The notes under the pieces were generated by a model. That model searched no databases. It was not told the origin of the DNA and saw nothing but the letters and a program-made list of their open reading frames with translations. A program made the position numbers and the translations under genes. A stretch of 64,000 bases of DNA from Tenrec ecaudatus (lineage: Eukaryota > Chordata > Mammalia > Afrosoricida > Tenrecidae). Of this stretch, positions 505-64,000 are shown piece by piece (within the stretch, counting starts at the first letter, position 1; the number at the start of each line of letters is the position of its first letter). Location of the stretch: assembly GCF_050624435.1 (NCBI RefSeq), contig NC_134535.1:122933731-122997730 (forward strand), in the 5' to 3' direction.

Positions 505-650
505 TCTCCAAAGTAGGGAGCCAGCTCTGCTCTTGGTCTGGAAGCTCTGCAGAAAGCTGTCCACTTTGGGTGACCCTGCTGGCATTTGAAACACCAGTCA
601 CATAGCTTCCAGCATCACAGCAACACAAAGCCATCACAGTACCACAAACT
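505..650. repeat. Unassigned interspersed repeat, copy 1
   Basis: A segment with ACATAGCTTCCAGCATCACA and GCAACACAAAGCCATCACAG recurs in diverged form at 32640-32770, and more weakly at 2835-2950. I recall similar sequence elsewhere in afrotherian DNA but cannot name the family. Confidence 0.5.
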
Positions 651-689
651 TTTCAACACTTTGACGTAAGGCCATCCAGGGATGATTGC

Positions 690-8244: not shown

Positions 8245-8332
8245 ATGTCTGAAGAAGTGACCTACGCGACACTCACATTTCAGAATTCGGCAGAAGCAGG
8301 AAATAACCAGGGTCCAAAGCTAAGAAAAAGAG
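8245..8332 (+). CDS. CLEC12B: CLEC12B exon 1 (cytoplasmic tail with ITIM)
   Basis: This exon encodes residues 1-29 plus the first base of Gly30. It begins MSEEVTYATLTFQNS; Tyr7 sits in an exact ITIM (V-x-Y-x-x-L). The donor is G|GTAAGA, phase 1. Confidence 0.95.
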
Positions 8333-14300: not shown

Positions 14301-17300
14301 TCGGAAGAAAAGGTGTGGTTGGAGTTCTTGTTCAAATTACTGAAATTGTCCCTTTCCTGAAAGGTCTACCAGTGGAATTTCTGATTCTCACGGTGGGACT
14401 TCAGTCCATTAAAATGGTAATAAATGAATTTAAAGAAGACTCCCATCTGCCTTGCATTTGCAAAATGGCATGTGGCTCTCCTATGCAAATGTTTTCTGTT
14501 TTCTCTGCCAGGATTTTCTCAGGTCCCAGTTGTTCCCCAAGTTGTCGTTCTTCTGGCTGGGATTATCGTGGAACCCACATGGCAGAAATTGGCTGTGGGA
14601 GGATGGTTCTTCTCCGTCTGTCTCCTTGTAAGTCTCAAACCATCAGGGAGAGATCAAGCTTTCCAAAGAATTTCAAGAAAATAAATGCTAATTAAGAATT
14701 ATTGTACACTTGGATTAGACCCACAAAGGGAAGAAAGCTGCAGTAACAAATAATGGAATGAAGGGTGTCTGATATCATTTGTTTGAGAAACTAATGGCAA
14801 GGCACTTGATTGACATTATGAATTTATTTTATCCAACATATATAATAGCATTCTCAAATTTCTTTATAATCTTAACTCTACAAGGTAAACACTTTTCTAT
14901 GATCATTTTGTAGGGGAGAAAATGGAGTCACTGAGAGATTAAATAACTTGTCTGAGGTGTCTCATCTATTAAGTGGCAAAGTCAGGAGTGTCTGGAGAGC
15001 ACACATTCAGTGCTTAACTAATCTGGCTCCCCGGCCGTAGCATTCATAGATTAGGGGGGCCCCATATGAACTCACATGAAAATTGGTACATTGATTCAAA
15101 TTGCATATTTGTCAGTCATTTTCCAACAGAAAGCCAGTCTGACCTGACTGATTAGTTCAACAAGCCGTTTCTCAGTGAGGATTGGTTAGCTAGGTTGTAT
15201 GGCAAACATTTTCCATGAATTTACAGTGAGCTAAATCTATCACTTTGTTGCTTTGATGGAAACACTTAAACTACAATTAGAATATGTCATACTCGGAAAG
15301 TGACATGTTTGAAAATATTTATGCAAAAAATTACATGTCAGCTTTAAACAATGTGTGAAGGGCACCTAACCAAAACTAAACTCAAAGTTACTGCTGTCAA
15401 GTCTAATCAGCTCAGACCCCCCCAAAGGACAGGGTAGACCGGCTCCTGGGATTTCCCAAGACTGTAGGGGAGTAGGAAACCTCCTCTTTCTCCTGTGGAG
15501 TGCAGACCTTGTGACCTAGCAGCCCAATGGGAAACCCACTACGCCATCAATCTTCCTTCTTTCAGCCACTGCAACCCCCCAATTGTTGAGGAACATTGTT
15601 TTAGAATCCCCCCTGAAGTCACAACTATATTAAAACAATGAGATCATAGATATTATACTAATACTGTAGGAGCCCTGGTGGTGTCATCGTTGTGCGTTGG
15701 GCTGCTAACTACAAGGTAAGCAGTTCGAGACCACCAGCCAACTCAGTAGAAAGATGATGCTTTCTGTTCTCATAAAAGTTAGCAGCCCAGAAAGTCACAG
15801 GGGTGGTTCTACCCTGTCCCAGAGGGTCTGCTTGGGTCAGAACTGAGTCCACGGCAGGGAGGTTTAGGAATACAGTGCAGTGCAGTGCTAGCGGCGTATG
15901 AAATAAGATGTAGATTCATTGACATATTTCAGGGTGTAGTAGGTTTACTCCTCCCACCTACATCCCCTCCCAGGCCCAGCAAGGACTTGATTCATTGCAC
16001 TTACTTTTGTTTTACTCTTCAATCTACGTTTTCCTAGTGTTTTTAAACTGAATTAGAATCACTCATTATCTATCAAAGATACTAGACTCCAGGTGAGACT
16101 CACCAAATCCCTTAAATAACAAACTATGTTACGTTTATGTGTTTTCCCTAGGTAGAATTTATCTACATCTACTTTCCAAAATTTTACCATGCTTATTTCT
16201 ACTCAGACAAATATTAATTCAGGCAAAGTCTCATTCCCTAATCATGATAATGATATTATTAAATCTATTAATTTAGTTTCACATACACAAAAATGACAAA
16301 ATACATACAGATTAATAGATGAAAAAGCAAAAACAATTTTGAAGCATATGCAATACTGGGTGTGGGGTGATTAAAAATAAATTCCATACAGCGTTGATTG
16401 GCTGGAGAGCTTACAGGAATAGACCACGAAACTATGTAAATGTATTTTCATGTCCACTCTGAAGTCTAACAAATGTTTCCACTCACAAAGTGATGTAATC
16501 ATCATTTTCACCCTCCCCCACTCCTCATCACAGCATGGGATGGCTTCCAGAGAAAGGCTTCAGAGTCCCCAAACACTGAGTCCTCTGGCTAGCACAGGTT
16601 ACAGAGGAGCATTTTCAGGTTAGAGAAATGGAGTTTCAGTGTTACATATCCATTTCAGACTATTGAGTAAAGGCTCTCTCTTTTTTTACTTTTCCATTTT
16701 ATCCGGAGCTCTTACAGATATTATAACAATCTAGAGTTCAATTAGATCAAGCATGATTGTACAATGCTGCCACCATCATTTTCAAAACATTTTCTTTCTT
16801 CGTACACTCTTTGATATCAGCTCCCCTTTATCCCCTCCCTCTCCCACCGTAACACTCAGGAACCCTTGTTCTTATATTTAAATATTATTATTTATTTTTA
16901 TCTTTTTCCATATCTTACACCATCCAATGTATCTGTCCGTGTACCATTCTGTTATCTGTTCCCCTCGAGTGGGGTTATATAATCATACTTGCTATCAGTT
17001 TCCCTTTCTCCCCTTCTCTTTCTGTACCATCAAGGAATCATTACATCCCTTACTATTTATGAAGGGTTTATCTAGCTTGGAGTTCATGCATTGAATAGAA
17101 TTAAGATCTTAATTATACAAAGGAACATGTACACATCTACTGGGATTAATGAAGTAAAACTAAGACCATAATAGTAGCAGGAAGGAAATATTAGCAAACT
17201 AGAGGATAGTTATGTGTTTCAACAGTGGTATACTACACCCTGGATATATCATCCCTTTCATGTGGCCCTTCTGTGAGGGACTGTCCAATTATCTCACAGG

Positions 17301-20300
17301 TACAGGTAGTCTTTGGGTTTCCACTTTGTTTATGTTCTTTCATGTCAATCTGGGTGCTTAATTTTGAACTTCTGATACCTATTTCCATCGATGCCGCCTG
17401 ATGACACAGGCTGGTGTGCTTCTTCCATGTGGACTTTGTTGCTTCCCTGCTAGATGACCCCTTGTTGAATTCAAGCCAAGCAAAGGCTATTGTGAGCAAG
17501 TATATACACAAAGATTAAGATTTAGTAAATCCAGTGCCCAAGTGAGAAAATAATATGGCTTTGCAATATAGAACATTTGGGAAAAAAGCCATGTTGGGCT
17601 CACAGAGAATTTTACATCTGAATAACATGTAATTGTGAAATAGCTGGGTGTTGCCAATGATTAAGGGGAGATGCTAATAGGAAGATTGACTGGTTAAACC
17701 AACCCAGAAGCATGTTATCATGGTTGTTGTTAGGCTCCATCAAGCCGGTTTGAACTTAAAGTGACTGTCTGGAAATATTGCCGGGTGCTGGGCCACCCTC
17801 ACGAGGAATGCTGTGCTTTGGCCCATTGCTGCCATCGCTATGTCAGTCCATCACTTGGACGATCTTCCTCTTTTTCACTGCTCTTCTCCTTTACCAAGAA
17901 CACGGTCCTTTTCCAGGAACTGGTCTCTTCGGATACATGTCCGAAATACCAGAAGTGATGTGTCAACATCCTCTCTTCTAAGGAGGATGTACCTTTTCCA
18001 AAACAGATTTGTTTGTTGTTCTGGCAGTCCATGGCACTTTCAATATGCTCCACCAGCTTCCATTAGTAGCTTACCTCATCACCATAATGCAAGCACAATG
18101 ATTCTTCTTCGGTTTTCCTTATTCAACGTCCAACTTTCATGTGTTTGTGAGGTGACTGAAGATACCATAGCTCGAGTCAGGGACATCTTAGTCCTAACGT
18201 GACATATTTACTCTCCAGGGTTGTTCACGAAGTCTTCTGCAGAAGTCTTACCCAATACAATAATACATCATTGGATTTCTTGACTACTCTTTCCATGAGC
18301 ATTGATTAGGGACCCATGCAAGATGAAATCCTTGACAATTTCAATCTTTTCTCCATTTATCATGATAATGACTATTGGTCCACTTGTGAGAGGTTTTACT
18401 TCCCTTTTTTAACATTGCCATATTTTTAGGATATTACAACCCTCCATTTGTGTTTTCTGTAATGTAAGTACTTTTCATTATACTTGGTAGTGTGTTTATG
18501 TCTTATATTGGGGCCCTTAATTTTTCCTCTAATTTTTGTTGATGATTCTTACACTTCTAGGGTTTATATTTACATATATCTTTAATCCATCTTGAGTTCA
18601 TTTTAAGCATCTTATTGAAATATAATTCACATATATTACAAGCCAATGGTTCAAATACACTAAAAAGACTTGTTGCAATCATTACAATCTATTCTGGAAT
18701 GTTTTCTTCTTTCTTTTCTTCATTGTTATTAGCATTTCTCATCTCCCACAACCTCCCTTGCTATACCTCCAAGAAACTATTGACCCAGTGGCTGTTTCTA
18801 TAGGTTTACCTATTCTAGATTTAAAGAAAATTGAACAAATATATTTTCATATAAAGAAGATTGAACAAAAAGAAGAAAACAAAAACACTAAACTAAAACA
18901 GAAAAAGCTCATTTTCAAAGAAAGTAATAAAAACTAGGAGAAGTTAAGAAGAGGTCAAATTAAGAAAATGGTTAGATGTTAAATTTAAACCAATTATCTG
19001 CAGTAATCTATTTTCCAAGTCTTCCTGTCTGTGAAGAAGACAGTTCACATTCCTATTCAATACTCTAAGTAAGGTCTTAAACTACATAGGGCCTCTGCAA
19101 ATGGATTTTGGGCTGTCATCCTTAGCCTCGAAAAACTGGTGGTCCAAATTTAAAGCCCTTATACAATTCCCTCCTCCAATCTTGGCTTTTAGTATTCTAC
19201 ATCCTCAGATTACACAGGGGTGGCGTGCTTCCTCTATGTGGTCTTAGCTGGCACCTCATTTAGATGTCTGTGTGTTTAAGCAAGTCTGTAAGGCTCCAGA
19301 CACTATGCTTTCTGTGTTAGGCAAGGTTGAGGAGAGACATATATATATATGAAAGAGTTTTATATCAAGCAGTATTTATATATCAAGAAAGTATCCCAAC
19401 CCAGTCCAACTCAAGTCCATAAGTCTGATAAGTCCATTAGTCCCTCTTCAGACTCACACAGTCACAAGCAATGATGCAGAATGCAGGAAGACCACAGGTT
19501 GTGTAGATCCAATGTGCAGAGTTGTGTGGATCCAATCATGGTGGAGGCATCAGGGCTCTGGCAGCAACCAGGACAGCGAGCAGGAAGGTGAAGCCAGAGA
19601 GAGAAGGGAAGATACCCAGGGCTCTCCTTATGAAAAGGCCACACCCACAAGGAGGCACTATCAAGCTGTGACTTGATTGACAGGTTGACTACCACCCCTA
19701 CTCTTTCATATATCTTCAAGTTGGCATGAAATTATGTAATCACCACACTCTGTTAACTAGGCACCATCTGACTTCTTCACCATACTTTGTTCTTCCACCC
19801 ATATCTTCACTGATCATTTTATGAGAAGTATTAAGCAGGGTCATATTATAAGAATTTATTGTTCTTAGATTAGGGTTTACAATTATGTATGCGCTCAAAA
19901 TTCATTCATATATCTAATGGTTATATATATTTTTCATCTGTTTTAGAAACAACAATATCAGGTTCTTACAATCTTGCAAAATAATGAGTAGTACACAGGG
20001 CTTTTGGTAATTTATTAATTTTGTTAATAATATCCTTAATTTAGTTAATGATATAGAATTTTAAATACTAGTGTGAAAAGGAATATATATATTATAGGAA
20101 AGTTTATTAGACTGAAATATATGAAATATTCACTATACCGGTTAAAAACTCAAGTGACTGAACATTGCCAAGTAAACAATAGCAATTAGACACAAGACAA
20201 AAATTTCGAGAATGTTGTTCACTAATGCAAAATTAGGCCTGATGAACATGTCTTGAGTTCACTTTTGTATATAGATTGATTTGCCACGTAAATAGGGGGA

Positions 20301-20672
20301 ATAGAAATCCTCAAACCCTAATTTAAGTGTTCTAAGGAATCCTATCTGGGATCATAATGAATTTAAGACCAGTAATTCAAGTGTGCATCTTTAGGGACTT
20401 AGATGAGTTGTGGATGTGGAAATTGCTTATCATCCAGTCACGTGAGTTTTGGCTGATAGGACAACTGCAGTCACATTTAAAATATGGGATTTACAATGAC
20501 TTTCAAATGGTTTATTTTCAGATTCAGTAGGAATGAACTTGCCCACATCAATGGATCCAAAGGATGTGCTTACTTTCAGAAAGAAAATATTTATGCTTCC
20601 CGCTGCAGTGCTGAAATTTCTTGGGTTTGTGAGAAGACAGCAGCATTGGTAAAGATTGAAGATTTGAATTAA
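8245..20672 (+). CDS. CLEC12B: CLEC12B, C-type lectin domain family 12 member B (six coding exons)
   Basis: The exons are 8245-8332, 9782-9880, 13060-13275, 14158-14312, 14512-14627 and 20522-20672; they join into an 825-nt frame of 274 residues plus stop, against about 276 in human CLEC12B as I recall it. Phases are 1,1,1,0,2. In order: cytoplasmic ITIM VTYATL (residues 5-10), transmembrane segment about 41-62, stalk 63-134, lectin-like domain from C138. The domain shows CNPCPKMWQW, WLGLSW, WLWEDGS, NGSKGCAYF and a final VCEK. From family knowledge, CLEC12B is a type II myeloid and skin-cell receptor whose phosphorylated ITIM recruits SHP-1/SHP-2. It lacks the usual calcium and sugar ligands (WEDGS rather than WND), as expected for this receptor group. 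The start was chosen because it reproduces the family N-terminus. Nothing is broken; two splice sites are weak. Confidence 0.96.
8815..8965 (+). repeat. MIR SINE in CLEC12B intron 1
   Basis: TGTGTAAATAAGAAAACTGA, GGCTGAAAGAATGAGG and CACCTGGTATGTGGTGGATC are diverged forms of the MIR core (GAGGAAACTGAGGCACAGAG... GCTAGTAAGTGGCAGAGC). Confidence 0.7.
9782..9880 (+). CDS. CLEC12B: CLEC12B exon 2 (transmembrane segment)
   Basis: The acceptor is TTTCTTCAG and the donor ATGT|GTAAGT. It encodes DPTPSAVWRW followed by a leucine-rich hydrophobic run ending in VTLGIM. The absence of a charged residue in the membrane segment fits a receptor that signals through its own ITIM rather than an adaptor. Confidence 0.95.
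10780..11601 (-). mobile_element. Two L1 3' ends, head to tail, within one target duplication
   Basis: The 17-bp sequence ACATTGATGCACATTTT occurs perfectly at 10763-10779 and 11602-11618. Between them lie a first L1 3' end (TTTTATTACGGGCTCATATA, to about 10875) and a second, longer copy starting TTTTATTAGGGGCTCATACA at about 10907. Both are in minus orientation. The far end is a CA/TA-rich tract at 11556-11601. No ORF2 is present. Confidence 0.8.
11690..12845 (+). mobile_element. L1 fragment, end of ORF2 and 3' region
   Basis: ACACGTGGAAAGAGGCTCCA, ATGCAAATCAAAACTACAATG and GTGGAATATTATGCATCCCTG are the classic end of mammalian L1 ORF2, here broken by frameshifts. It ends in an A-rich tail (AATAATAAAATTG). 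It lies in CLEC12B intron 2, in the same orientation as the gene. Confidence 0.85.
13060..13275 (+). CDS. CLEC12B: CLEC12B exon 3 (stalk)
   Basis: The only start that keeps the frame open and matches human residues is the AG at 13058-13059. It gives YFQTSNIIDLDSEEL as the beginning and KLCQQLVIEKS as the end. The donor is TCAG|GTAAAC, phase 1. The stalk includes a heptad-like stretch around FLKSQISNLLKKQEQM and unpaired cysteines at 85 and 126, as expected of a dimerising stalk. A second AG eight bases later (13066-13067) would shift the frame into an immediate stop. Confidence 0.9.
13590..13775 (+). mobile_element. Degraded AfroSINE
   Basis: GGCACAGTGGGATAAACATG, CAGATTTATAGTCTTGAAAA and TCATCTCGATGGCAGTGGGT follow the AfroSINE order, including its terminal CTCGATGGCAGTGGGTTTG. 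Confidence 0.65.
14158..14312 (+). CDS. CLEC12B: CLEC12B exon 4 (first third of lectin-like domain)
   Basis: The acceptor is CTTTTGTAG. It encodes DHKCNPCPKMWQWHQNSCYY through RNATLLKLDSSEEK, with the expected cysteines at 138, 141, 152 and 170 and an N-glycosylation sequon at N174. The donor, AAG|GTGTGG, is poor. Read-through would add about 15 residues and then stop at 14358. Confidence 0.93.
14512..14627 (+). CDS. CLEC12B: CLEC12B exon 5 (middle of lectin-like domain)
   Basis: The acceptor is CTCTGCCAG and the donor CTT|GTAAGT, phase 2. It encodes DFLRSQLFPKLSFFWLGLSW and then NPHGRNWLWEDGSSPSVS. The two tryptophans W201 and W213, twelve residues apart, are the landmarks used to recognise the same exon of the minus-strand pseudogene. 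Confidence 0.95.
14860..15035 (+). repeat. MIR SINE in CLEC12B intron 5
   Basis: GTAGGGGAGAAAATGGAGTC, AGATTAAATAACTTGTCTGA and TAAGTGGCAAAGTCAGGAGT match the MIR core in order. Confidence 0.75.
15668..15875 (+). mobile_element. AfroSINE, nearly full length
   Basis: It begins GGAGCCCTGGTGGTGTCATC, continues GGGCTGCTAACTACAAGGTA and GCAGTTCGAGACCACCAGCC, and ends with GTCAGAACTGAGTCCACGGC. This tRNA-derived SINE family is restricted to Afrotheria and is the best lineage marker in the window. Confidence 0.85.
16678..17520 (-). mobile_element. Old L1 3' region
   Basis: The order TTTTATCCGGAGCTCTTACA, CATCATTTTCAAAACATTTTC, TCCCCTTTATCCCCTCCCTC and CATGTGGACTTTGTTGC mirrors the younger L1 3' ends of the window in minus orientation, but it is more diverged. 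Confidence 0.65.
17725..18400 (-). mobile_element. RTE/BovB-like LINE 3' end
   Basis: On the minus strand the (AAC)n tail end is followed by CGGACATGTATCCGAAGAGA-type sequence and by ATAAATGGAGAAAAGATTGA. The same blocks occur in order in the + strand RTE copies at 690-1868 and 34140-35700. Confidence 0.8.
18401..19312 (-). mobile_element. Old L1 fragments
   Basis: CTTTAATCCATCTTGAGTTC is antisense L1 ORF2, and TCTATGTGGTCTTAGCTGGC with GTTTAAGCAAGTCTGTAAGG is an old L1 3' end. The latter appears to continue after the inserted LTR at 19748-19985. Confidence 0.5.
19313..19747 (-). mobile_element. MaLR/ERVL-type solo LTR
   Basis: On the minus strand it starts TGTGGTGATTACATAATTTC and ends CCTAACACA. 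It shares its start, middle (GGACTTATCAGACTTATGGA-type) and end with the LTRs at 43457, 46545 and 48581. It is inserted in an older L1 in CLEC12B intron 5. Confidence 0.65.
20522..20672 (+). CDS. CLEC12B: CLEC12B exon 6 (end of lectin-like domain and stop)
   Basis: The acceptor is TTTATTTTCAG. It encodes FSRNELAHINGSKGCAYFQK, then ENIYASRCSAEISWVCEKTA and a tail ending KIEDLN before TAA at 20670-20672. The human tail ends almost identically (KTEDLD). It is separated from exon 5 by a 5.9 kb repeat-filled intron. Confidence 0.95.
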
Positions 20673-50587: not shown

Positions 50588-50738
50588 TCAGCTTGCCTGA
50601 TCATTTTTAGTGCTTGGAATTTTCTGAGACTGATAATTTATATTTACTTTCTTTTCACAAATGTAGTAACTAATGTACTCGTTAGCTTTTCCAATTCCTT
50701 TCTCTTCATTGGAAATAGTCATGAGGGTGCCAATCAAC
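50588..50738 (-). pseudogene. Receptor pseudogene, terminal lectin-domain exon
   Basis: After a strong acceptor (CTTTTTCCCCCCACAG) the phase-2 frame reads LIGTLMTISNEEKGIGKANE, YISYYICEKKV and a tail to TGA. YICEKK is the typical end of this domain. NEEKGI aligns with NGSKGC of CLEC12B, so that cysteine is Ile. The cysteine expected eight residues before the last one is Asn. The coding length, 151 nt, equals CLEC12B exon 6. Confidence 0.75.
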
Positions 50739-51544
50739 CTGTGGGGGGAAAAAGATTTGATTGCCTAAACAAATCCAACAACTATATTGAAAGTCCGACA
50801 ACTATATCCTAGCTCTAAACTATTATTTCCCAAACCTGGTGGATTCTTTATTTAAAAGGAACAACAGAAATAAATAACTGCTTTGATGGTTACTTTCACT
50901 ATGATAAGAATTTACCAGTCCCCTCAATTTTTTTGGACTTGCAGCTCTGCCTGGCCCTTCTGTAATCCAGTTTATCTAGGTGGTGATCACACCTCCTTTC
51001 CATCCCAGGGCATTGTTGGTGCCTTGATATATTATCAATAGTGTCTCCTTTAAGGCTAAAAACTATTTGGGTTAGGGTAATAAATCATGTGGAATTCTGG
51101 TCAAATGCCACTTAAAAATCTTTTATGATATTATTTTAATAAAGTATGTGAGCTTATATTATTTGCTTTAAAAGCACGTAAAATGGCAAAGCAGAAACCC
51201 GCAACCATAGGTCTCTTGACTACAAGAGAAAGCTTTTGTCCTATTTTACAAAGTAACTTCCTAGACCTTGATTTCTTGGTTTCCTTTCTCCCTTCTCTAG
51301 GAAGGGCGACACCTAGTGGAATGGGAAAGCAAGGGACCATGGCATAGCTTGTCCTCATTCCAAGGAAATTGATTTCTCATCAAAGAAGAATTGCCTAAGG
51401 CAATAGAAAATTGCCTACTGAGTTTCTTATTTTCTGTGTACAAATATCTTGATCATAGATGGCAAATGACTATCAGGGAAACATTTTTAAATTAACAGTA
51501 AATATCATTTTTTGATTGACAGAAGTAAAAAAATGGAGACTTAC

Positions 51545-51651
51545 GAGATATCACAGAACTCCGAGCTGCTCTCGGCAGTCTAGTTTTCCTCGTGCAGAGT
51601 ATAATTTAGATTCACCTAGGAAAAAGATGATGGAAGACATTGGATGAACAG
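51545..51651 (-). pseudogene. Receptor pseudogene, middle lectin-domain exon with two stops
   Basis: The acceptor is TTTGTTTATAG and the donor CTC|GTAAGTCTC, nearly the same as the CLEC12B exon 5 donor. In the required phase it reads LFIQCLPSSFS, stop, VNLNYTLHEEN, stop, TAESSSEFCDI. The stops are at 51616-51618 and 51580-51582. They are twelve codons apart and align exactly with CLEC12B W201 and W213; the distance from the second to the donor is also identical. Confidence 0.8.
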
Positions 51652-52494
51652 CTATAAACAAAAGAAACACCATTCACAGCCTTGTTGTATCTCTAGTAAG
51701 TCACCCCAGTGCATTCGAATCAGATTCAGATCATCAAAATTTCACTCAATTATACTTTCACCCCTTCTTGGCATATTATTGTCTTTCCCTGAAGGAGAGA
51801 TTTAAAACATTCTTTACTCTTTCCAGCTTCCTGTCTACAACCATCAGTCCACCCTAACATTCAGCAGATAAGCATGCTACAGCTTCCCAGTGTGGAGACA
51901 AAAATGTAGGTCATCAGATGACCTCTTAAAGGTCCTCCTTATTAAACTACTACTACATTGGTGTCTTCAAAGATTATCGTTAACTCTTCCCTAGGAACAC
52001 TGAGCTAAGTTCCATTCATCCAAGGCCATCCATCATTTTTGCTGAGATCCCCACTCTGTTCTAGCTTATATGTCTCTGTCCTGATCCTTTACTATTTCCC
52101 TATTCACTGGATGCTGCCCTAAATTAAGTCATATGTTATTAAAAAAAACAAACTCTTTGGGTACTTTGAAATTTTTGTTGAGATGTAAAAATTTCTTGCG
52201 TTTCATTAACTTCTAAGACTCTAGGGAAATGTCAAAGGTTTTAAAACTTTTTTTCTTTCCCATGTAGTTTTTAAATCCTTTCTGGACATCTTTTGGAAGT
52301 TCTGCATTTTTAATTTTATTTTATTGCAAATTTTGGATTTATTATTTTGTCTCATCTTATAAACCTTTTAAAGGTCCATGGAGGCAAGTTCTATTGCTCC
52401 TAAAGCTATTAGTCAGTGTGCAAAAATGAGTAAAAACTTAAAAACAAGAAATTGATTTTGACGCATCCTGAATGACCCTACTAACCCCAGCTGT

Positions 52495-52715
52495 AACTCA
52501 CTGCCACTGAGTCCGTTCCCGCGCAGTCAGTACTCTGGGGCTGCTAACTACAAGGCCGGCAGTTTGAAACCGCCAGCTGCTCTGAGGGACAACAAAGAGG
52601 CTTTCTACTGCTGTAAAGAGGGGAGATTCGGCTCTGTTCTACAGGCCTGTCATGAATTGAAATTTGTGACCTTTTATTAGTAACTGACTGCTATTTCTAC
52701 TGAGCCGCATGATCC
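52495..52715 (+). mobile_element. AfroSINE
   Basis: GGGGCTGCTAACTACAAGGC, GGCAGTTTGAAACCGCCAGC and GGCTTTCTACTGCTGTAAAG are in the AfroSINE order. It lies in an intron of the receptor pseudogene. Confidence 0.8.
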
Positions 52716-53034
52716 TAAGTAAACACTTTAGAAATATTGATTTGAATTACAGAAGGTAATCAATATTTAACTAATGGATATGCCTTTCCACAGGTTTCGT
52801 AGATAACAGGGAGGTTTCTTAGCAGAGAGGATACAGGACAGAAATAATTCCTGACATTTTTATCTTCCAATAGTTCTCACATGTCTTTGTCCTAACTAAC
52901 ATCTAGGATATCAGTCATTCACCCAGGCTTTGATGGTCAAAAGGATATTGTCCAAAATCTGACTGCTTTCATAAGTGAAAAACTGATCATTGATAGTTGC
53001 TAATGATAACATACTAGAACAAACCATATAGTAT

Positions 53035-53985
53035 GTAAAGGCATTTGACAGTGTGGACCATAACAGACTGTGGATCACCTGGAGAAGAGGGGAATTCTGG
53101 AACCCTTCATTGTGCTCATGTGGAAATTGTACATGGATCGAGAGGCAGTTGTGCAAACAGAATAAGGGAGTACTTCGTGGCTTAAAATCAGGAAAATGTG
53201 TGCCAGGGTTGTGTGTTCTCACTCTACTTATTCAAATTATAAGCTAAGAAAATCATCAGAGAAAGTGGATCATATGAAGAAGATTGGACATCAGGATTAG
53301 AGGAAGACTTTATTAACAACCTGTGATATGCAGATAACATAAACTTGCCAAAAGTGAGGGGGGAATTAGAGATCTTGCTGATGAAGATCAAAGATTGTAG
53401 TCTTTAACTGGATTCCAGCTCAATGTATAGAAGCCCAAAGTACTCATATCTGAACTAGTAGACAACATCATGAGAAATGGAAAAAGGTTGAGGTTGTCAA
53501 GGATTTTTTCTGACTTGTATCCACAATCACTGCTCATGGAAGCAACAATCAAGCGATCGAAAGAGGTATTGTATTAGGTAAATGTGGTGCACAGATCTTT
53601 TTAGCATACTAAAGGACGAGGATGCTACTTTGAGGGCTAAGGTACCCCTGACACAGCCATGGTGTTCTCCATCGCATCATATACATGTGACAGTCAACCA
53701 TTCAATAAGGAAGCCTGCAGAGTGGATTTATTTGAATGGTGATTCTGGAGAGGAATACTGAAAGTACCAAGAGCTGCTAAAAGGGCAAACCGATCTGTAC
53801 TGGAAGAAGTACGGCCAGCGTGCTTCTTAGAGGCAAGAATGACAAGACAACATCTTATGTAATTTGGACATATTGTCAGGTGAGCCCAGTCCCTGGAGCA
53901 GGACATTCTGTTTGGTAAAGTGGAAGGGCAGCGACAAAGAAGGCCTTCACAAGATAGATTGCATAGGGAATTCAAGATAATCAAT
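53035..53985 (+). mobile_element. RTE/BovB-like LINE fragment
   Basis: AAAGGCATTTGACAGTGTGG, AACCTGTGATATGCAGATAA (YADD region), GAGGTTGTCAAGGATTTTTT and CCCAGTCCCTGGAGCAGGAC follow the RTE order. It lies in the pseudogene intron, antisense to the pseudogene. Confidence 0.85.
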
Positions 53986-54131
53986 ATTTCTCTCTCCATA
54001 TCGTACCTGTTGTAATATGTTTCATAGATTAGTCCCTCTCCTAATAACTGGTTTTCCTTTTTATAGGAATATGTGATGAAAGAAATCTCCAATGGCATTA
54101 CTCAGAGAAAGGAGGCTAGGCTCCTTATAAA

Positions 54132-54330
54132 CCCAAACTTACTGCCATGGAGTTGATTCTGAGTCACAGTGACACTATAGGACATAGAAGTGTCCCTCTG
54201 GGTTTTGGAGACTGCAAGTCTTTAAGGGAGTAGAAAGCCCCATCTTTCTCCCTTGGAGTGGCTGGTGTTTTCAAACTGCTGACCTTGGAGTTAACAGCCC
54301 ATCAAGTAACCGACCACTCCACCAGGGCTT
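54132..54330 (-). mobile_element. AfroSINE
   Basis: In minus orientation it begins AAGCCCTGGTGGAGTGGTCG and ends near CTCAGAATCAACTCCATGGC, nearly complete. Confidence 0.8.
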
Positions 54331-54464
54331 GGGGTCAAGTACAGGGTATACAATCCATCTATTAGAAAACAGCAAGGATTAATGTTGTCGCCTAAATTGT
54401 CATTACCTGCAATTCAACAAAAATGAGATCCTTTTGTTGATCTATCACAAATTATAATACTTAC

Positions 54465-54595
54465 CTGAGTTGTAGTTGGACTAGTCTCCTTGTCAACACT
54501 GTTTGAAGAGGAGTGATTCATTCTGCAATCAATGCTATTTTTGTTGAGAAAATTTCCTTCTCCATGTGATATCCATAACTCTGAGCATGTGCAAT
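54465..54595 (-). pseudogene. Receptor pseudogene, first lectin-domain exon
   Basis: The acceptor is TTCCTTGTCAG and the donor CAG|GTAAGT. The 131-nt exon is open, phase 1 to 0. It reads NCTCSELWISHGEGNF and then SIDCRMNHSSSNSVDKET. The C-x-x-x-W-x-x-H pattern and the later DCR match CLEC12B, but eight codons are missing, and the cysteine of the usual CY pair reads Asn-Phe. Confidence 0.65.
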
Positions 54596-54769
54596 CTGAC
54601 AAGGAAATGCATAATGGCTATAAAGGTATGGTATAATGATACATATCAAACAAACATACATAATTATACTCTAAACAAGCATATATACCAGCAATATATA
54701 AATATATTTATTAAAAGGATTAACAAACCTTATGTATTGAATGAGATTATTAAGATATGAGCAAAAGAA

Positions 54770-55345
54770 GGAGTCAGCCAGGGTGCAATGCAGCACCAAC
54801 AAAATATAAGACATTCCTCCAGTTCTTTAATGCTTCCCCCTCTCAGCCCCCATCACCACTACCACTATCATGACCCCAGTTCTACTTTACAATCCCAGCT
54901 AGTCTGGAGCATGGACACTGGTACAGGTAAGAGCCCTCGACCCAGGGAATCCAGAACAGATAAACCTGCAGGGACAATTAAGGGGTTCATGATACCATGA
55001 AGGTAGGGGGAAGGTTGGGGGAGAAGAAGTAGAAAAGGGGAACTGATAACAATGATTGATTTATAACTCCCCCACCCCCAAGGGGGATGAACAACAGAAA
55101 TACGGGTGAAGGGAGACAGCAGATGGTGTAAGATATGAAAATAATGATAATTGATAATTTATCAAGGGTTCAAGAGGGAGGGGGATGGAGGTAAAAAAGA
55201 GGAGCTGATACCAAGAACTGGAGTAAAAGAAAATGCTTTGGAAATGATAGCAACATATGTACAAATGTGCTTGATACAATTGATGTATGGATTGTTATAA
55301 GAGCGGTGAGAGCCCCCAATGAAATGATTTATTAAAAGAAAGAAA
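54770..55345 (+). mobile_element. L1 3' end
   Basis: AGTCAGCCAGGGTGCAATGC, GGGGGATGAACAACAGAAAT, ATTTATCAAGGGTTCAAGAG and CCCCCAATGAAATGATTTAT are in the order of the other L1 3' ends of the window. Confidence 0.8.
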
Positions 55346-55640
55346 AGAACAATGGAAGAATGTAAAAGAACCCATTGTGACCAGGTGTGATCCTTATCAT
55401 ACGCGTGTGGACTTCATAGATCTTTTCCTGGTGGAGGAACCAGGGCTCATATAAGAACTGACCGATTCCAAAATAAAGGGGTTTTTATCAAAAGGACTCA
55501 GGAGGCAAGGGCAAATCAATCAAGGTAACAATGGATTGAAACAAGTGTATGTGTAGACCGGCCTTCATATTGATACTGAAAATCTCACTGGAAACCTTTG
55601 GTAGACCTTACAGAGAGCCAGCTCATTATTTTGAAAAGTA

Positions 55641-55725
55641 GTAAATAAAAAGAATTAAATCGCCTGCTCTCAAGAAAGAAAGAAAAAAAGAATTAAATCT
55701 CCCGCTCTCAAGAAAGAAAGAAAGA
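55641..55725. repeat. Tandem duplication ending in (GAAA)n
   Basis: The unit AAAAGAATTAAATCGCCTGC plus TCTCAAGAAAGAAAG is repeated once with three changes. Confidence 0.8.
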
Positions 55726-56009
55726 TACGAGCAAAGGGAAAGAATGGTATCTAGAAATAAATTGGTTTGGATGTAGGAAAATCTAAAAGCAGAAGAATTA
55801 AGATAGATATAGAAGAAGAGATGTTATTAAAGGAATATTAAAATCAATCAAGTAAAATGTCATCATGATTTAAATTTTAGCAATGGGTCCTTGTCCATTT
55901 CTACTCTGATTGTCTATAGCAATCTAGATCTCCACTAAATTCCAGGGGGATAGTTTAGTAAGAGTATGTATTATTTTATCCTCCTTTCCCTAGATCTCAA
56001 ATTAAAATT

Positions 56010-56310
56010 AAAATTCTTCCCATTATCTACAAGACCCCACTGACACACCAGCACTGTTACCACCTACCTTTGGTGTTCTGTCATTCAGTTACCCTGAGGA
56101 TCTTTAACTTTTCTTCAGATTCCATGATCACTGTCTTACCTTTTGTTGCAATGCGCCTCCACTCCCAGGATTTGTACAACCTATTCCCGCTTAGTCTGGA
56201 CTGTATAGTTTTCTTGCGTTACATGTTATGCCGTGATCATTTCTACACTGCAATGTAATTTTTTATTTACTAATATGCTTCACCTAACATATCATCTAAA
56301 CTTAAGGGAA
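56010..56310 (+). repeat. Possible LINE2 3' end
   Basis: TACAAGACCCCACTGACACA and the later pyrimidine-rich blocks have the order of an old L2 3' end, but similarity is weak. Confidence 0.35.
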
Positions 56311-56359
56311 GAAGCTCTTATAATGGTTGAAAATTTTATACTCTTTTTTTCCCTTTTTT

Positions 56360-56555
56360 TGAGTGAAAGAGTGAGTGGTGAAAGAGTGAATGAGTGAGTG
56401 AGTGAGTGAGTGAATGAGATAGTGTGTGAGTGAGTGAGTTAGTGAGAGAGTGAGTGAATGAGAGTGAGTGAGAGTGAGTGAGAGAGTAAGTGAGATAGTG
56501 AATGAGTGAGAGAGTGAGTGAGTTAGTGAATGAATGAGAGAGTGAGTAAGTGCGA
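56360..56555. repeat. (GTGA)n-type minisatellite
   Basis: About 195 bases consist of GAGT/GTGA units with frequent A and T interruptions (GAGTGAGTGAGTGAATGAGA). It lies in the intron between pseudogene exons 3 and 4. Confidence 0.9.
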
Positions 56556-56764
56556 AAAACTTATATTCTTAAGGTCTTCTACATGCTTGACATACATGAC
56601 TCAATCTTTTTGTTTAGTGAAAGAATGGGGGAAAATTAGTGGGAAAGCTGTAGAATTTGCAGGGGGAGAAACGACAGATGTGGTTCCTTTTTAAATACAA
56701 CTGAATAAACTACCCGTCAAAGCTTCTGCTTCAATCTATTATCATTGTTGATGCTACATTTGTT

Positions 56765-56880
56765 GTTTGTGTTAGGTGCCATGGAGTTCGTTCCGACCCA
56801 TAGCAACCATATGCACAACCAAATGAAACACTGCATACCCCTGTGCCATCCTCACAACTGGTCCTGTACTGAGCTACATT
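56765..56880 (-). mobile_element. RTE 3' end fragment
   Basis: TTAGGTGCCATGGAGTTCGT, CCATAGCAACCATATGCACA and CCATCCTCACAACTGGTCC are the antisense RTE terminus. Confidence 0.75.
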
Positions 56881-58074
56881 CTACACACAGCCGAATTTTA
56901 AAAGGAAAATGGTCTGTCCCTATACTCCATCCTGGTCTTTCAGGAAAAACATGTGCTGACAGAATTCTCTCCCACAGAGTAATCCAGTAGATAGTTATTT
57001 TCAGTGGAAATGAATTAATAGAAGATTCAATCTACATGAGCCATCCCTTTCTATCTTAAATATAAACAAGAACATCAAACAACCCCCGCCCCCTTTAAAA
57101 AAACACAATAATCAGAAGTATGAGTATAACAGCATGTAAAAGAGAACTCTAAATTAAAATCAAATAAACAAACAAAACTAACTCCAGGCACCAAATGGGA
57201 AATAATGTATGGGAGGAGAATATTCTAATTTATATACTTAGATCTACTATAAAAGCGGTTATATATTTAAATAATGAACAGGCTATTGTACAAACAAATT
57301 TCAAGAATTAAAGACTTAAAATGATGTTTTCATAACAATCAGTTAAAGGAGTGGAAAATAAAGCTAATGGAATTTTCCACAATCTAATGTAGAAAAAAGA
57401 GAAATCATAAGGGGAAACGGAAATCCAAAAACCTTATAATTTAAATCATAGAAGTCATGAAAAGAACAGGAAAAGTAGAATAAAGAGAAAAAGTAGAATA
57501 AAGAAACAAAATATATTGGTAACAGTCTTTCTTCCGTGTGAACAATTTAAATGAAGATTTAAATGTAGATAAGGTCCACAAAGCACAGAGGAAATAAATG
57601 GCTCCAGCCCATATGCATACACAGATCACCTTACAATTTTTATCTCTAAGAATCAGTTAAAATCAATTCATTTAAAACACAATAAAAAAAGCACAGACTT
57701 TTTATAAGCAACATTGTTTTCTCAGACACAATGAAGTGGCTTTCCATAACTGGAAAACTGATTTTCAATCTTAAAAATTTATACTTAGATGGAATTAATG
57801 CCATTTTAAATATGCCAGGATTCAACCTTTTTAAGGAAACTACTTATAGCTAAACTCTATTAAAATAAGAATGTAAAGAAAGAAATAAAACTTAGAAATG
57901 GAAAACATAGTGAAAATAATCCAATAGAGAGAAACAGCAAGCAATAAAGTGCCCCATACATACTTGTTAGCTTGATTATTAAAAATACTAATTAAGAATA
58001 CAAAAAGTAAGAAAATATAAAAGTGTTTTGCTATTTAATACAAAGTTTTAATATTCCAAGATTATGCATCTGAA

Positions 58075-58258
58075 GACAGGCTGGTAGATATGGAAGCATC
58101 CTGACTCACTGATTCGGTGGGAAATGACATCGTGTTTGATAAAGTAAAGGGCAAGCAAAGTGGAGACCCTCAAGGCAGTAGACTGACACAATCACCACAG
58201 CGAGAGATTGAAATTACACTAAGATTATGAAGATGGCACAGGGCCAAGCAGTCTTTCA
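58075..58258 (+). mobile_element. RTE 3' fragment
   Basis: GACATCGTGTTTGATAAAGT, GACCCTCAAGGCAGTAGACT and GATGGCACAGGGCCAAGCAG match the last 200 bases of RTE copies. Confidence 0.7.
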
Positions 58259-58292
58259 TTTGACAAGAAACATAGACATCATATTTACTTAC

Positions 58293-58508
58293 TTTTATTA
58301 TTCTGCTTTAATTGTTCACAGTAGTTAGAGAGTAAAGTTTTCAGTTTCCCTATTTTGTTCTCTGACATATTTCTGAAAGCGCTATGCTCTCTTGAGATGT
58401 TGTTATACATCTCTAGACATGACGTCACATTTCTCTGCAGCTGTTCCAGGAGAGTGGGTGGGCGTTCCGATGCGGTTCTGTTATTGCACTGAATGTATTT
58501 CTGGAAAT
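58293..58508 (-). pseudogene. Receptor pseudogene, stalk exon
   Basis: The acceptor is TTCACTCTAG and the donor AAAA|GTAAGT. The fully open 216-nt exon is exactly as long as CLEC12B exon 3. It begins YFQKYIQCNN and ends SNYCEQLKQNNK; the CEQL cysteine sits at the same residue as CQQL in CLEC12B. The middle (EQLQRNVTS) resembles the human CLEC12A stalk (EELQRNISL). Several N-x-S/T sequons remain. Confidence 0.85.
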
Positions 58509-58644
58509 CTAGAGTGAACACAGGGAGATTAACTAAAGGTCAAAGAGCTTTCTTCTCTATTCTATGAACTCACAGTATCACGTTGGTGATATTTTAATTT
58601 AGTGAACTGTACATTTTTAAAAGATAGGAACATAATGATAAGGT

Positions 58645-59045
58645 ATTAATTTTATGAATGACTACGGGTTGATGAATAGCCTCCCAAAAGATACATTTAG
58701 TCCTGGTTCCTGTGACTTTATTGGAAAAATAATATGTTTTCAGCTGGAATTAATTAACATAAAGTCATAGTAGAGTAAGGGTGATCTTATACAATATGTT
58801 AGTGCCCTCAGAGCAGAGAGAAAAGGTGAAGACATAGGCAAAGTCTTAGTTCCGCTGCCACAAGCCAAAGAACACAAGGGGCCATCCGACGGTGGGTGAA
58901 ATAAAGCAGAAGTCCTGGTCCTGAATGTTTCAGAGAGTGCCTGACCTTGCCAACATTGATTTCAGATTTCCAGCCGGTGGGACTTTGAGAGAATGGCTTT
59001 CTCTTGACTAGTCCTCGAGTTTGTGGTGTTTTGCTACTGCGCCCT
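58645..59045 (+). mobile_element. MLT1-like LTR
   Basis: GAATAGCCTCCCAAAAGATA, GCTGCCACAAGCCAAAGAAC, GATTTCAGATTTCCAGCC and TTTGTGGTGTTTTGCTACTG are in the order of MLT1 LTRs. Confidence 0.65.
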
Positions 59046-59244
59046 TATGAAAGGAATGCATAAGCATCTCAGACCAAACTTGATTCAGCGTAAATATATA
59101 GTTCTCTTAAATTGAGTGGCAATTCCTTCTTTAAGGAAATGCTCAAGTCAGTTTAAGAAGTCTATAAGAATATAAATAAGCAACATGAAGAAAATGCTAA
59201 GCATCCCATGTCACTAAGGAGTTCAAAATTAAATTATAATAAGA

Positions 59245-59640
59245 TTGAATTCATGTGACCTGTTAGAAAGGGGAAAATCATAAACATTGACAAAAGCAAA
59301 TCCTGGGAGGATGTGGGGCAATAGGAGCTGGAATTCACTGCTGGTGGGCATGTAAAATGGTAGCGGCACTGACGAGGCCAGCTTTGATCCTTTGCACAAA
59401 ACTAAGTAAAAGGTCACCATATGGTTCCACAGTCATGTTCCTAGGCATCTCCGCAACCAAATGAATTGAAAATGTATGTTCACCCAAAACACTGCATACA
59501 AATGTTTAAAGCAGCTATAAACATTGCCCCCAGTTACAGGAATCCCGTAGATGCCCTTCAATAGAATGGATAAACAAGCTATGATGTATGCGTACAGTGA
59601 AAAATGATTCAGTAATACAAACAAAGGAGTGGTCAAGTGG
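59245..59640 (+). mobile_element. Old L1 ORF2 end
   Basis: GGGAGGATGTGGGGCAATAG, GGTGGGCATGTAAAATGG, TTTAAAGCAGCTATAAAC and CTTCAATAGAATGGATAAAC are standard L1 landmarks. Confidence 0.75.
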
Positions 59641-60847
59641 TGCAGACATGGACATCACTGAACTGAATAGTATTCAGAGCAAAAAAAAAAAAAGGACTGG
59701 AAGTTTGGAACCCATCCTGTTTGAGTCCATCTCTATGACATCTGGGAAAGGAATACTGTAGAGGAAATGAAAAAGGTCCGAGGTGGCAGGAGTTTGGAAG
59801 GTGAGAAGCGAATAAAGAATTGGTGGAGTTCAGGGCATTTTTAGGACAGAGGTGATTCTGCATGATGCAGTGTTGTGAACACACTACATTATGCATTTGC
59901 CAAAACCCCTAGACGAATACAACACAAAGCATGAACCATTACGTGGACTATGATCATGTGCCAATAGCCATTAATCAATTGTAACAAATATGCCACATTG
60001 ATGTAAGATATTATTAACAGGAGGGACCTAATTCAGCAGGCGAGGGCTTGTGAGAACTTTTTGAACAGTTTATAAATCAAAAAATAAAATCTTAAGACAC
60101 ACTTGGGAGACCAGGAGGAGTCAGAATTTATTGACCAGGAATTTCATGTAGAGATATAACCATATTCTAACAATTATGGTCCACATCAAATAAAATGAAT
60201 TATGGTCCACAAAAAATAAAAGAATCATGATTCTAAGACCACTTACAAAAATTTACGATCTCCCTATTAATGAATCTAATAATAAAAATCCAGCTTTAAA
60301 GGCTGACTCTTGTTCCTTTACTGGATAGACCCTGACTTCAATTTTGTAATTTTCAAATGGAATCTTATAATGATTAAGTGAGATCTCTGGGCATTGAGGA
60401 AATGCTGAATCTTATTGTTAAATTTCTCCTCCCCCCCCCACCCCCTGAAACATTTCTATTCACCATGGAAGGGAGAGTATTTCCCACTAAGCCGCCAGGT
60501 TTCAGGGGAGATGCTCTCAAAATATAGAGTGGTTAAAATGTTAACTTTAAATTTCCAAAGAATTTAATCATGCCTGAAACAGTACATTATTACAAGGCTG
60601 AGAAGATGGTCAGGACAGAGAAGTAAACATAATGCTTGGGTAGCACAAGTGGTCTGTGATTGCCTGGCAACACAATGGTCACTAGTTTAAGACTATCCAG
60701 CAGCTTCAAGAAAGAGCCATAGAGATCGGCTTCTGTGAAGATTACAACCAAGAAAATCCTTGGGCGAAGATCTACCCTGCAGCCCATGGAGATGCCATGG
60801 GTTAGGGAGCCACAGGAAGACAGCTCCAACAAGAATAATACCAAAAG

Positions 60848-60855
<8 letters not shown>

Positions 60856-60886
<31 letters not shown>

Positions 60887-61925
60887 ATTAGGGGCTCATA
60901 CAACTCTTATCACAATCCATACATACATCCATTGTGTAAAGCACATTTGTACATTCATTGCCCTCATCATTCTCAAAACATTTGCTCTCCACTTAAGCCC
61001 CTGACATCAGGTCCTCATTGTCCTTCCTCTCTCTGCCTCTCCCTCCCTCATGAACCCTTGATAATTTATAAATTATTATTTTGTCATATCTTGCACTGTC
61101 TGACGTCTCCCTTCACCCACTTTTCTGTTGTCCATCCCCCAGGGAGGAGGTTATATGTAGGCAGATCCTTGTAATCAGTTTCCCCTTTCCAACCCCACCC
61201 TCTCTCCATCTTCCCGGTATTGCCACTCTGACCGCTGGACCTGAAGGGATCATCCACCCTGGATTCCCTATGTTTCCAGTTCCTATCTGTACCAGTGTAC
61301 ATGCTGCGGTCTAGCCAGATTTGTAAGATAAAATTGGGATCATGATAGTGTTGTGGGTGTGGGGGGGGGTGGGGAGGAAGCATTTAGGAACTATAGGAAA
61401 GTTGTATGTTTCATCATTGCTACACTACACCCAGACTGGCTCATCTGCTCCCTGTGACCCTTCCATAAGGGGATGTCCAATTGCCTACAGATGGGGGGTC
61501 TCCACTCCGCCCTCCCCCTCATTCACAATGATATGATTTTTGTTCTGATGATGCCTGATACCTGATCCCTTCAACACCACGTGATCACACAGGCTGGTAT
61601 GTGGGCTTTGTTGCTTCTGAGCTAGAAGGCCACTTGTTTACCTTCAAGCCTCTAAGACCCCAAAGGCTATATCTTTTGATAGCCAGGCACCATAAGCTTT
61701 CTTCATCACATATGCTTATGCACCCATTTGTCTTCAGCGATTGTGTCGGGAAGGTGAGTTTAATAGAGCAAAGTGTTCCTGCATTGAGGGAGTACTTGAG
61801 TGGAGAACCAATGTCCATCTGCTACCTTAATACTAAATCTGTACATATATGCACATAGATCTATTTCCACATCCTCATATATATTTACTATGTACATGCC
61901 TATATTTAAACTTCTATAAATGCCC
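60856..61925 (-). mobile_element. Young L1 3' region next to an (AT)n tract
   Basis: It begins TTTTATTAGGGGCTCATACA after about 14 AT units and runs about 1.05 kb to AAATGCCCTTTACCTCC. It is the cleanest copy of the long L1 3' end in minus orientation and contains GGTATGTGGGCTTTGTTGCT and TTTTGATAGCCAGGCACCAT. Confidence 0.85.
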
Positions 61926-62758
61926 TTTACCTCCTAGCTCTTGCAAAGGTGTATTTCAATGAGCTTGAGACCTCATTTCTTAGATATAAAACAACTTGCT
62001 GATAAGAATGAACAGATTTGCTTCTCCTTATAAAGACACTTTGCCTTTGATATTAAAATTATACTGGTACTTACACATTTTTCATTTAATAATAAAAATA
62101 TACAAAGCATAAATAAACCATAGTTTATATCCTTACAGTATTCTGGAGTAATGAGACTCTGTCCTCCACTTATTTTACTAGTACCAGGCATAAGTATGGA
62201 AGTTATATAAAATAAATATTGTTTTGTAGTTATAATCTGAAAGGACAGTAATATAGAACCAGATTACATTCACATAATAATAATTATTATTATTATAATT
62301 CACTGGATAATAATCTATTATCCAGCAGCTTTTATCAGGAGATAAAAATCAGTTGTTAGAAAACCAGAAGAAAAAAGAATCAAGATAATGAAATGATGTT
62401 TAGAAAGATGTTTACAAATGAGCAGAAGAAGGGGAAAAGAGTCACAAAAATGTAGTATTTATCAAATGAATGAAAACTTTCAGGGTGTTAATGAATATCA
62501 CATTTATTGCATTTATTTAATAACTTTTAGAAGAAAATGGACTACATTACACCCTTTACTATTATTCTTCTGATGTATGATCATCACTGAGATGATTTTT
62601 ATTTAAAAGTATTCTCAACAGAAAGATCAATGTGATCTAAGTATGTAGAAATAAACCCTGTTTTCCTGGAAATTTTGTATGATGATGCATCAGAATCTGG
62701 ATTCATTCGTGATGTGTCTAATAAAATCAATGAAACAACAGAGGAAGTGGAAGCTTAC
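61926..62758. other. Pseudogene intron, AT-rich
   Basis: No further element is recognised. A short ATAATAATTATTATTATTAT stretch near 62277-62297 is self-complementary. Confidence 0.4.
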
Positions 62759-62857
62759 ACATTAACCCCAGGGTTCCCAGTCCAGCCAGAACGATGAGGT
62801 GAAGCACAAGCGAAACACAAGCGACCTGGCACCATACTCGTGAGGGGGCTTTCTGTC
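62759..62857 (-). pseudogene. Receptor pseudogene, transmembrane exon
   Basis: The acceptor is CTTATAG and the donor ATGT|GTAAGC. The open 99-nt exon encodes QKAPSRVWCQ and a hydrophobic run ending in GLGTLGLM. Length and both phases equal CLEC12B exon 2, and APS..W at the start is typical of CLEC1A/12A/12B. Confidence 0.85.
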
Positions 62858-63145
62858 CTATAAGAGAACAGGAAAAAGAATAAATAGCATGAAGCAACAC
62901 CTTCATTCCAAGCTCCTCTTCCCAATCTGCTGTCCTGCAGAGTATGAAATATTGGAATTTTTAAAATTTATTTTAAAATTTATTTTAAAATGCTTAACAT
63001 GTCAAGTCAAATAGTCCTCATTGTAGTCAGCCAACTTGAATACGATTCTATCATCATACCCAGCAGTAAACACACAATTTATGTACGTGTGCTTTTCTAA
63101 CAAGTTATGAATATTGTTATGGTTACTTTCTTTTTTATATTTAAT

Positions 63146-63172
<27 letters not shown>
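63146..63172. repeat. (TC)n microsatellite
   Basis: About 13 perfect CT units lie between exon 2 of the pseudogene and the window end. Confidence 0.9.
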
Positions 63173-63176
<4 letters not shown>

Positions 63177-63525
63177 CCAGCCTATCTTCCTAATCCTGTT
63201 CTCATTGGTTCACTATTCCAAGTTAGGCTTTTCATCTACAGGTAACTGGTGTTGACCGCCTGCTAGAAATCCTTCTTTCTCAAATGGGTGGTGAAATGAA
63301 TTCCTTTATGTGAAATTTTGCCTTGGTTCTTTGGAAAAAGAGCTTGAGGGATCGTTCCACTAAATTCCATCAGGTTATCGTTGCCCTAGTTTCTACCCCA
63401 TAGGGTAGGTTGTACCCAGCTTGGTGTTTCCTAAGAAACCATAAACAACTTCATATTTTGTCTGGAAGTGGCCTGAAGCCTGTCCTGTGATTGGTATACT
63501 TCTTAGAGGGAATGGTCAATGCACC

Positions 63526-63582
63526 ATGCAAATGAAATAACTATGGACTATGCAAATTGGGTGACTATCCTATTATGCAAAT
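63526..63582. promoter_or_regulatory. Three evenly spaced octamer motifs
   Basis: ATGCAAAT occurs perfectly at 63526-63533, 63550-63557 and 63575-63582, spaced 24 and 25 bases apart. OCT factors bind this motif. It could be part of an LTR enhancer or of the receptor pseudogene's old upstream region; the sequence does not decide. Confidence 0.45.
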
Positions 63583-64000
63583 GACATCTGTGTCCTCCCA
63601 AGAAGGCATGGCCAGTTTGTGGCCCACTTTGGTGAGAATGTCCATGCCTTGAAATTGACAAGGGGTGGTGCATCTGAGGAAGCAGGCTTCAAAAAGTGCT
63701 TAGAATAATTTTGTTCCCTTTTAATTTAATTTTCCATAAACTATTTGAAGACCCCTTATACATATTCAGGCAGTTTCACACCTTTTTCAGACATCAGGAA
63801 GCAGGAAGCAGAAGAAGCTGAAAGATACAGAAGAATGATGGTAAAAAGCAAAAAGCAGAGAGGGTAAAGGACTACTGAAAAAGCACAGTAACATCAAGGC
63901 TGTAATACTGCAGAGCACAGGAGCCTGAAGGAGCCCAGGGAAGAGCTGTTGACCACAGGCCGTGGGGCTGAGACGAGAGGAGGGAACCTAGAGAAGTGTC

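Follow-up and report, generated by a model that had tools for sequence, protein, structure and literature searches.

A candidate third CLEC12-group receptor gene, apparently without its lectin-domain exons, beside CLEC12B in the common tenrec

The minus strand of a 64,000-nt stretch of the common tenrec (Tenrec ecaudatus) genome, referred to here as the window (C62:122933731-122997730 in chromosome coordinates), carries two exons of a third candidate gene of the CLEC12 group of C-type lectin receptors, which we call locus X. The transmembrane (TM) exon, exon 2, at window positions 62759..62857, is 99 nt long and open, is bordered by AG and GT, and has the same phase as in CLEC12A and CLEC12B. 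The stalk exon, exon 3 (58293..58508), is an open 216-nt segment followed by a GTAAGT donor. Part of intron 1 occupies 62858..64000 within the window, and exon 1 itself lies beyond it. On the 3' side (50588..58292, minus strand), where exons 4-6 of the C-type lectin-like domain (CTLD) are expected, no supported exon was found. Locus X is apparently an unannotated third member of the CLEC12 group, and no published report of it turned up in a literature search.

Both strands of the window were scanned for open segments bounded by AG and GT (or by AG and a stop) whose phase and length fitted the exon sought, and each segment was scored against CLEC12A, CLEC12B, CLEC1A, and CLEC9A exons from a random panel of six proteins per family. 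The pool for these exon queries comprised 41 CLEC12B, 9 CLEC12A, 26 CLEC1A, and 29 CLEC9A proteins, the search for the last two families covering the best 120 of 219 matches. The TM exon scored 70, versus 21 for the top unrelated segment among 1155 candidates, and the stalk exon scored 49, versus 9 among 201 candidates. When the window was searched by tblastn with 217 lectin proteins, these two exons (E values of 1e-4 and 0.002, respectively) were the only matches at E <0.04 outside the CLEC12B exons.

Exon 1 of locus X was found 5 kb past the window edge, at C62:123002875-123002785 on the minus strand (which would be 69145-69055 in window numbering). It is 91 nt long and open, and its translation, MPEEVTYATIKFPNDSKTETCQESYSLRRT, contains at residue 5 an immunoreceptor tyrosine-based inhibitory motif (ITIM; [ILVS]xYxx[ILV]) that reads VTYATI. 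The stalk exon encodes four N-glycosylation sequons and three cysteines. Exons of 91, 99, and 216 nt, with GT/AG borders, follow one another in the type II tail-TM-stalk order and in the phases of CLEC12A and CLEC12B. Models of CLEC12 exons gave 31.8, 28.9, and 11.2 bits for exons 1, 2, and 3 of locus X, respectively; background maxima were 5.8 bits elsewhere in a 202-kb region that includes the window and 2.8 bits in reversed sequence for the exon 2 model, and 4.7 and 3.5 bits for the exon 3 model. The joined candidate exons had no lectin match in Pfam or PDB.

A preliminary description of this DNA listed five exons in order. Two of the five, the TM and stalk exons, stand far above background, but the other three, proposed as exons 4-6 on the minus strand, are indistinguishable from chance. 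The exon 4 candidate (54595-54465, 131 nt) scored 20 in the window scan, level with background among 838 candidates; that of exon 5 (51615-51545, 71 nt) has a stop in frame and hence provided no open candidate; that of exon 6 (50738-50588, 151 nt) scored 15 and ranked 11 of 936. A rescan of the 202-kb region, with another random panel plus tenrec genes and with candidates taken outside known genes, gave a score of 12 (rank 14/1927) for exon 4 and 9 (rank 45/1953) for exon 6. The 217 lectin proteins produced no tblastn match at any of the three at E up to 1. Models of exons 4, 5, and 6 reached at best 3.2, 1.3, and 2.8 bits on the minus strand of 122954400-122992300, while their reversed-sequence maxima were 6.4, 3.9, and 5.0 bits; this null is not strict, as single matches elsewhere in the 202 kb top it by a few bits (for instance, 7.8 versus 4.7 bits for an exon-5-like match, and 5.8 versus 2.8 bits for exon 2). 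No CTLD exon was detected on the minus strand in the 38 kb from exon 3 of locus X to CLEC12B. The three candidates were thus rejected as the CTLD of locus X on the basis of their background-level scores and the stop in exon 5. Of the lengths 99, 216, and 151 nt, earlier described as equal to those of CLEC12B, the first two hold and the third belongs to an unsupported exon. Since no exon 4-6 of a group V C-type lectin-like domain rose above background 3' of exon 3, we do not classify locus X as a functional CLEC12 receptor. The pseudogene status proposed earlier is likely because no lectin domain was found, but the stop noted at that time sits in an unsupported exon. We conclude that locus X is probably a decapitated leftover gene and not a misplaced CLEC1A. 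A weak exon-5-like match was seen at C62:123013956-123014015 (minus strand), between CLEC12A and exon 1 of locus X, with no clear exon around it; it is out of order for locus X, as it lies upstream of exon 1.

To map the neighbourhood, 14 fetched stretches were joined to the window, giving 202 kb with no N, in which lectin exons were located; the CTLD exon of the window matched 26 places in the genome, eight of which became loci. The order along the plus strand is CLEC1A, CLEC9A, CLEC1B, CLEC12B, locus X, and CLEC12A, and locus X is therefore positioned beside both CLEC12A and CLEC12B. CLEC12B, its tail-to-tail neighbour, is intact on the plus strand at window positions 8245-20672 (122941975-122954402), with coding exons at 8245-8332, 9782-9880, 13060-13275, 14158-14312, 14512-14627, and 20522-20672 that specify 274 aa. 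It matches P0001, annotated as isoform X2 of T. ecaudatus CLEC12B, at 244 of 245 residues, the sole difference being at a splice junction. In this isoform the last exon (window 20522-20672) lacks its first 29 residues; the full-length 274-aa reading is likewise open. CLEC12A (C62:123058319-123032094, minus strand) is also intact, with six exons, 267 aa, and no stop. Between it and locus X, at C62:123026034-123026123 (minus strand), an exon 6 resembling that of CLEC12A is frameshifted at an A run and represents a further partial copy.

Three CLEC1A exons, those within the stretch mapped, lie on the plus strand at 122887499-122891930, some 42-46 kb before the window begins, and are 96-100% identical to the annotated CLEC1A of T. 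ecaudatus (P0125). CLEC9A (122900731-122911098) and a gene assigned to CLEC1B by comparison with a human sequence (122915944-122925278) are on the minus strand. The last exon of CLEC9A (C62:122900731-122900859, minus strand) reads ...YFICEM followed by a stop, and the tenrec protein would end a few residues before that of other mammals. Matches resembling CTLD exons, with stops, were also seen in the same chromosome region at C62:123242089-123242271 and C62:122820017-122820202, both on the plus strand. Interspersed repeats within locus X occupy window positions 60861-61942, 54766-55354, 54129-54329, and 53032-53940, with 10 to 20 matching pieces elsewhere in the 202 kb; the short one at 54129-54329 resembles an AfroSINE. 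Two adjoining long open frames at window 606-1395 (plus strand) had no Pfam match, and their translation resembles the reverse transcriptase of a long interspersed nuclear element. Two further identities considered for locus X, the sole tenrec CLEC12A and CLEC1B, were rejected because an intact CLEC12A and a separate CLEC1B (122915.9-122925.3k) were found.

PMC13076529 counts seven genes in the Dectin-1 cluster of most of the eutherians that it examined, and reports that CLEC1B and CLEC12B are flipped in human and chimpanzee when compared with the others. In the tenrec, the succession 12A, 12B, 1B, 9A, 1A fits the non-human layout that we infer from this source, which gives no strands for other species; passages from PMC11484026, PMC11624271, PMC5350243, and PMC6614441 give no strand or order of these genes in afrotherians. 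The preliminary description, which placed the gene outside the expected order, was misled by the human arrangement because of the flip reported for human and chimpanzee. A check of the flanking order past 64 kb, which it had called for, revealed CLEC12A beyond locus X and CLEC1A, CLEC9A, and CLEC1B on the other side; the neighbours are thus as the inferred layout predicts, and locus X comes in addition to them, lying on the CLEC12A strand between CLEC12A and CLEC12B. Of the inverted copy of CLEC12A or CLEC12B that had been suggested, the inversion stands relative to CLEC12B but not relative to CLEC12A.

Exon 1 of locus X had median alignment scores of 59 against CLEC12A, 51 against CLEC12B, and 1 against CLEC1A. 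It therefore places the locus in the CLEC12 group, against CLEC1A, which narrows the original, correct assignment as a second CLEC12A/12B/1A-group receptor. Exon 2 did not discriminate among families (the TM exon scored 70 with both CLEC1A and CLEC12B), and exon 3 was weakly similar to CLEC12A, CLEC12B, and CLEC1A. Exons 1-3, when joined, gave profile scores of 62.3 bits for CLEC12B, 60.8 for CLEC12A, 32.9 for CLEC1A, and 11.3 for CLEC9A. With tenrec CLEC12A (MICL), locus X shares its strand, cluster position, 91-nt exon 1, ITIM-like tail, 99-nt TM exon, phases, and a stalk with sequons and cysteines, in which the sequence LQRNV is common to both; the CLEC12A stalk exon is 189 nt long, versus 216 in locus X. 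With tenrec CLEC12B (MAH), which is on the opposite strand, it shares the tail motif VTYAT[IL], the 99-nt TM and 216-nt stalk exons, and the phases, and 16/69 residues of exon 3 are identical. Both relatives differ from locus X in that no CTLD was found in the latter. Overall, the distances of locus X to CLEC12A and to CLEC12B are roughly alike.

The tree suggested in the preliminary description was built from exons 1-3. Its 33 rows were 14 of 42 CLEC12B, 10 CLEC12A (nine chosen ones plus tenrec, the more aberrant P0094-P0096 being left out), 8 of 26 CLEC1A (without exon 1), and locus X. In the best tree, locus X fell outside the CLEC12A clade (support 99/98) and the CLEC12B clade (98/99), its own position being unsupported. 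In the approximately unbiased (AU) test, pairing locus X with tenrec CLEC12A (p-AU 0.031) or with tenrec CLEC12B (p-AU 0.048) was weakly rejected. A recent inverted CLEC12B copy was discarded on the latter value and on DNA matches that were confined to repeats, pieces of chance size, and 36 bases of the TM exon. We favour an old third CLEC12 lineage for locus X, although it is not proven.

Exons 1-3 of locus X amount to 406 nt and 135 codons with no stop, no frameshift, and canonical splice sites. The exon 3 donor is intact, and reading through it adds two residues before a stop, for a total of 137 aa. Neutral decay was simulated in 4000 draws from 379 nt of tenrec CLEC12A exons 1-3, with 0.12 indels per substitution, 80% of them frameshifting, both parameters being our own settings. 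The chance that the frame stays open with no frameshift was 0.08 when 0.05 substitutions per site were applied and fell to 0.0025 with 0.12. Therefore, any loss of constraint on exons 1-3 was probably recent.

In the reading that we consider likely, locus X is a CLEC12-group receptor gene from which the exons of the lectin domain have disappeared. Its ancestor would have been a full type II inhibitory receptor with an ITIM recruiting SHP-1 and SHP-2, as is reported in PMC2704933 for the CLEC12B ITIM. The CTLD exons may have been lost by deletion or rearrangement, and what is left would most likely be a recent remnant. If transcribed, it could give a headless ITIM-TM-stalk protein of ~137 residues through read-through of the exon 3 donor; the usual ligand binding would be impossible for such a product, as it has no CTLD. 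In PMC8508511, the stalk cysteines of CLEC12A are described as governing surface display and oligomerisation. Human splice forms are similar in having a tail and TM segment without a complete lectin domain: the gamma form of MICL, with a stop codon after the TM exon (PMC3061320), and a CLEC12B form without part of the carbohydrate recognition domain (PMC2704933). These forms come from complete genes, whereas for locus X no CTLD exons were found in the adjoining genome.

Several observations weigh against the remnant of an old CLEC12 lineage. The AU test did not reject trees that group locus X with the whole CLEC12A set (p-AU 0.39) or with the whole CLEC12B set (p-AU 0.41). In the best tree it is one long branch (1.66) that joins CLEC1A with a support of 29/15, and a tree of exons 2-3 (37 rows) also put it there at 62/64, with the CLEC12A and CLEC12B groupings not rejected. 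Exon lengths are split, exon 3 (216 nt) being that of CLEC12B and exon 1 (91 nt) that of CLEC12A. Of 38 residues conserved in both families, locus X keeps 20, tenrec CLEC12A 24, and tenrec CLEC12B 36. With stops only, the simulated chances rise to 0.49 (0.05 substitutions per site) and 0.18 (0.12), and the argument for recent constraint thus depends in part on the indel rate that we assumed. The codon-position bias is weak, though in the same direction (75/127 versus 29/63, p 0.06). Finally, a five-exon protein query, which consisted of exons 2-6, half of it unsupported sequence and exon 1 excluded, and for which only proteins of ~122-387 aa qualified, brought up 77 candidates but not one with E ≤10, and hence no annotated locus X protein, relative, or orthologue.

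The alternative that survives best, which we nevertheless regard as rather unlikely, is that locus X is a fast-evolving tandem duplicate of tenrec or afrosoricid CLEC12A, either full or of exons 1-3 only, whose distance reflects rate and not age. Adjacency to CLEC12A on the same strand, the like length of exon 1, LQRNV in the stalk, the frameshifted CLEC12A-like exon 6 fragment lying between the two genes, and the p-AU of 0.39 all speak for such a duplicate. However, the pair with tenrec CLEC12A has a p-AU of 0.031, all 16 of the 16 same-strand DNA matches between locus X and the CLEC12A locus sit in repeated stretches, tenrec CLEC12A falls within the placental CLEC12A clade while locus X does not, and exon 2 is nearer tenrec CLEC12B (16/31 identical residues) than tenrec CLEC12A (11/32).

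More doubtful still is that a CLEC12 lineage that split off before the placental radiation of CLEC12A and CLEC12B has been kept in tenrecs as an expressed, ligand-free headless protein with selection on exons 1-3, which might, for example, dimerise with CLEC12A or recruit phosphatases tonically. It is very improbable that locus X is a complete, highly diverged receptor with the proposed exons 4-6 as its CTLD: C-x-C, W, HG, and a DC are plausibly placed in the candidate for exon 4, whose phases are correct, and the last candidate reads YICEKK and then stops at 151 nt, but exons 4 and 6 rank in the background, exon 5 is interrupted, and neither the exon models nor tblastn recovered them. The CLEC1A decayed at its own locus that was earlier proposed has next to no chance of being correct, since, despite a minus-strand position past CLEC12B that agrees with the human order, equal TM exon scores, and unsupported placement beside CLEC1A in both trees, the annotated CLEC1A (P0125) is present separately upstream of the window and exon 1 of locus X is unlike that of CLEC1A.

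With locus X, the Dectin-1 cluster gains a third CLEC12-group gene, apparently unannotated, and the non-human layout proves to be the proper yardstick of gene order here. Should the front half still be produced, it would offer a natural test of how an ITIM receptor acts without a ligand-binding head; should locus X be a remnant, relatives of the tenrec could serve to date the gene loss that it records.

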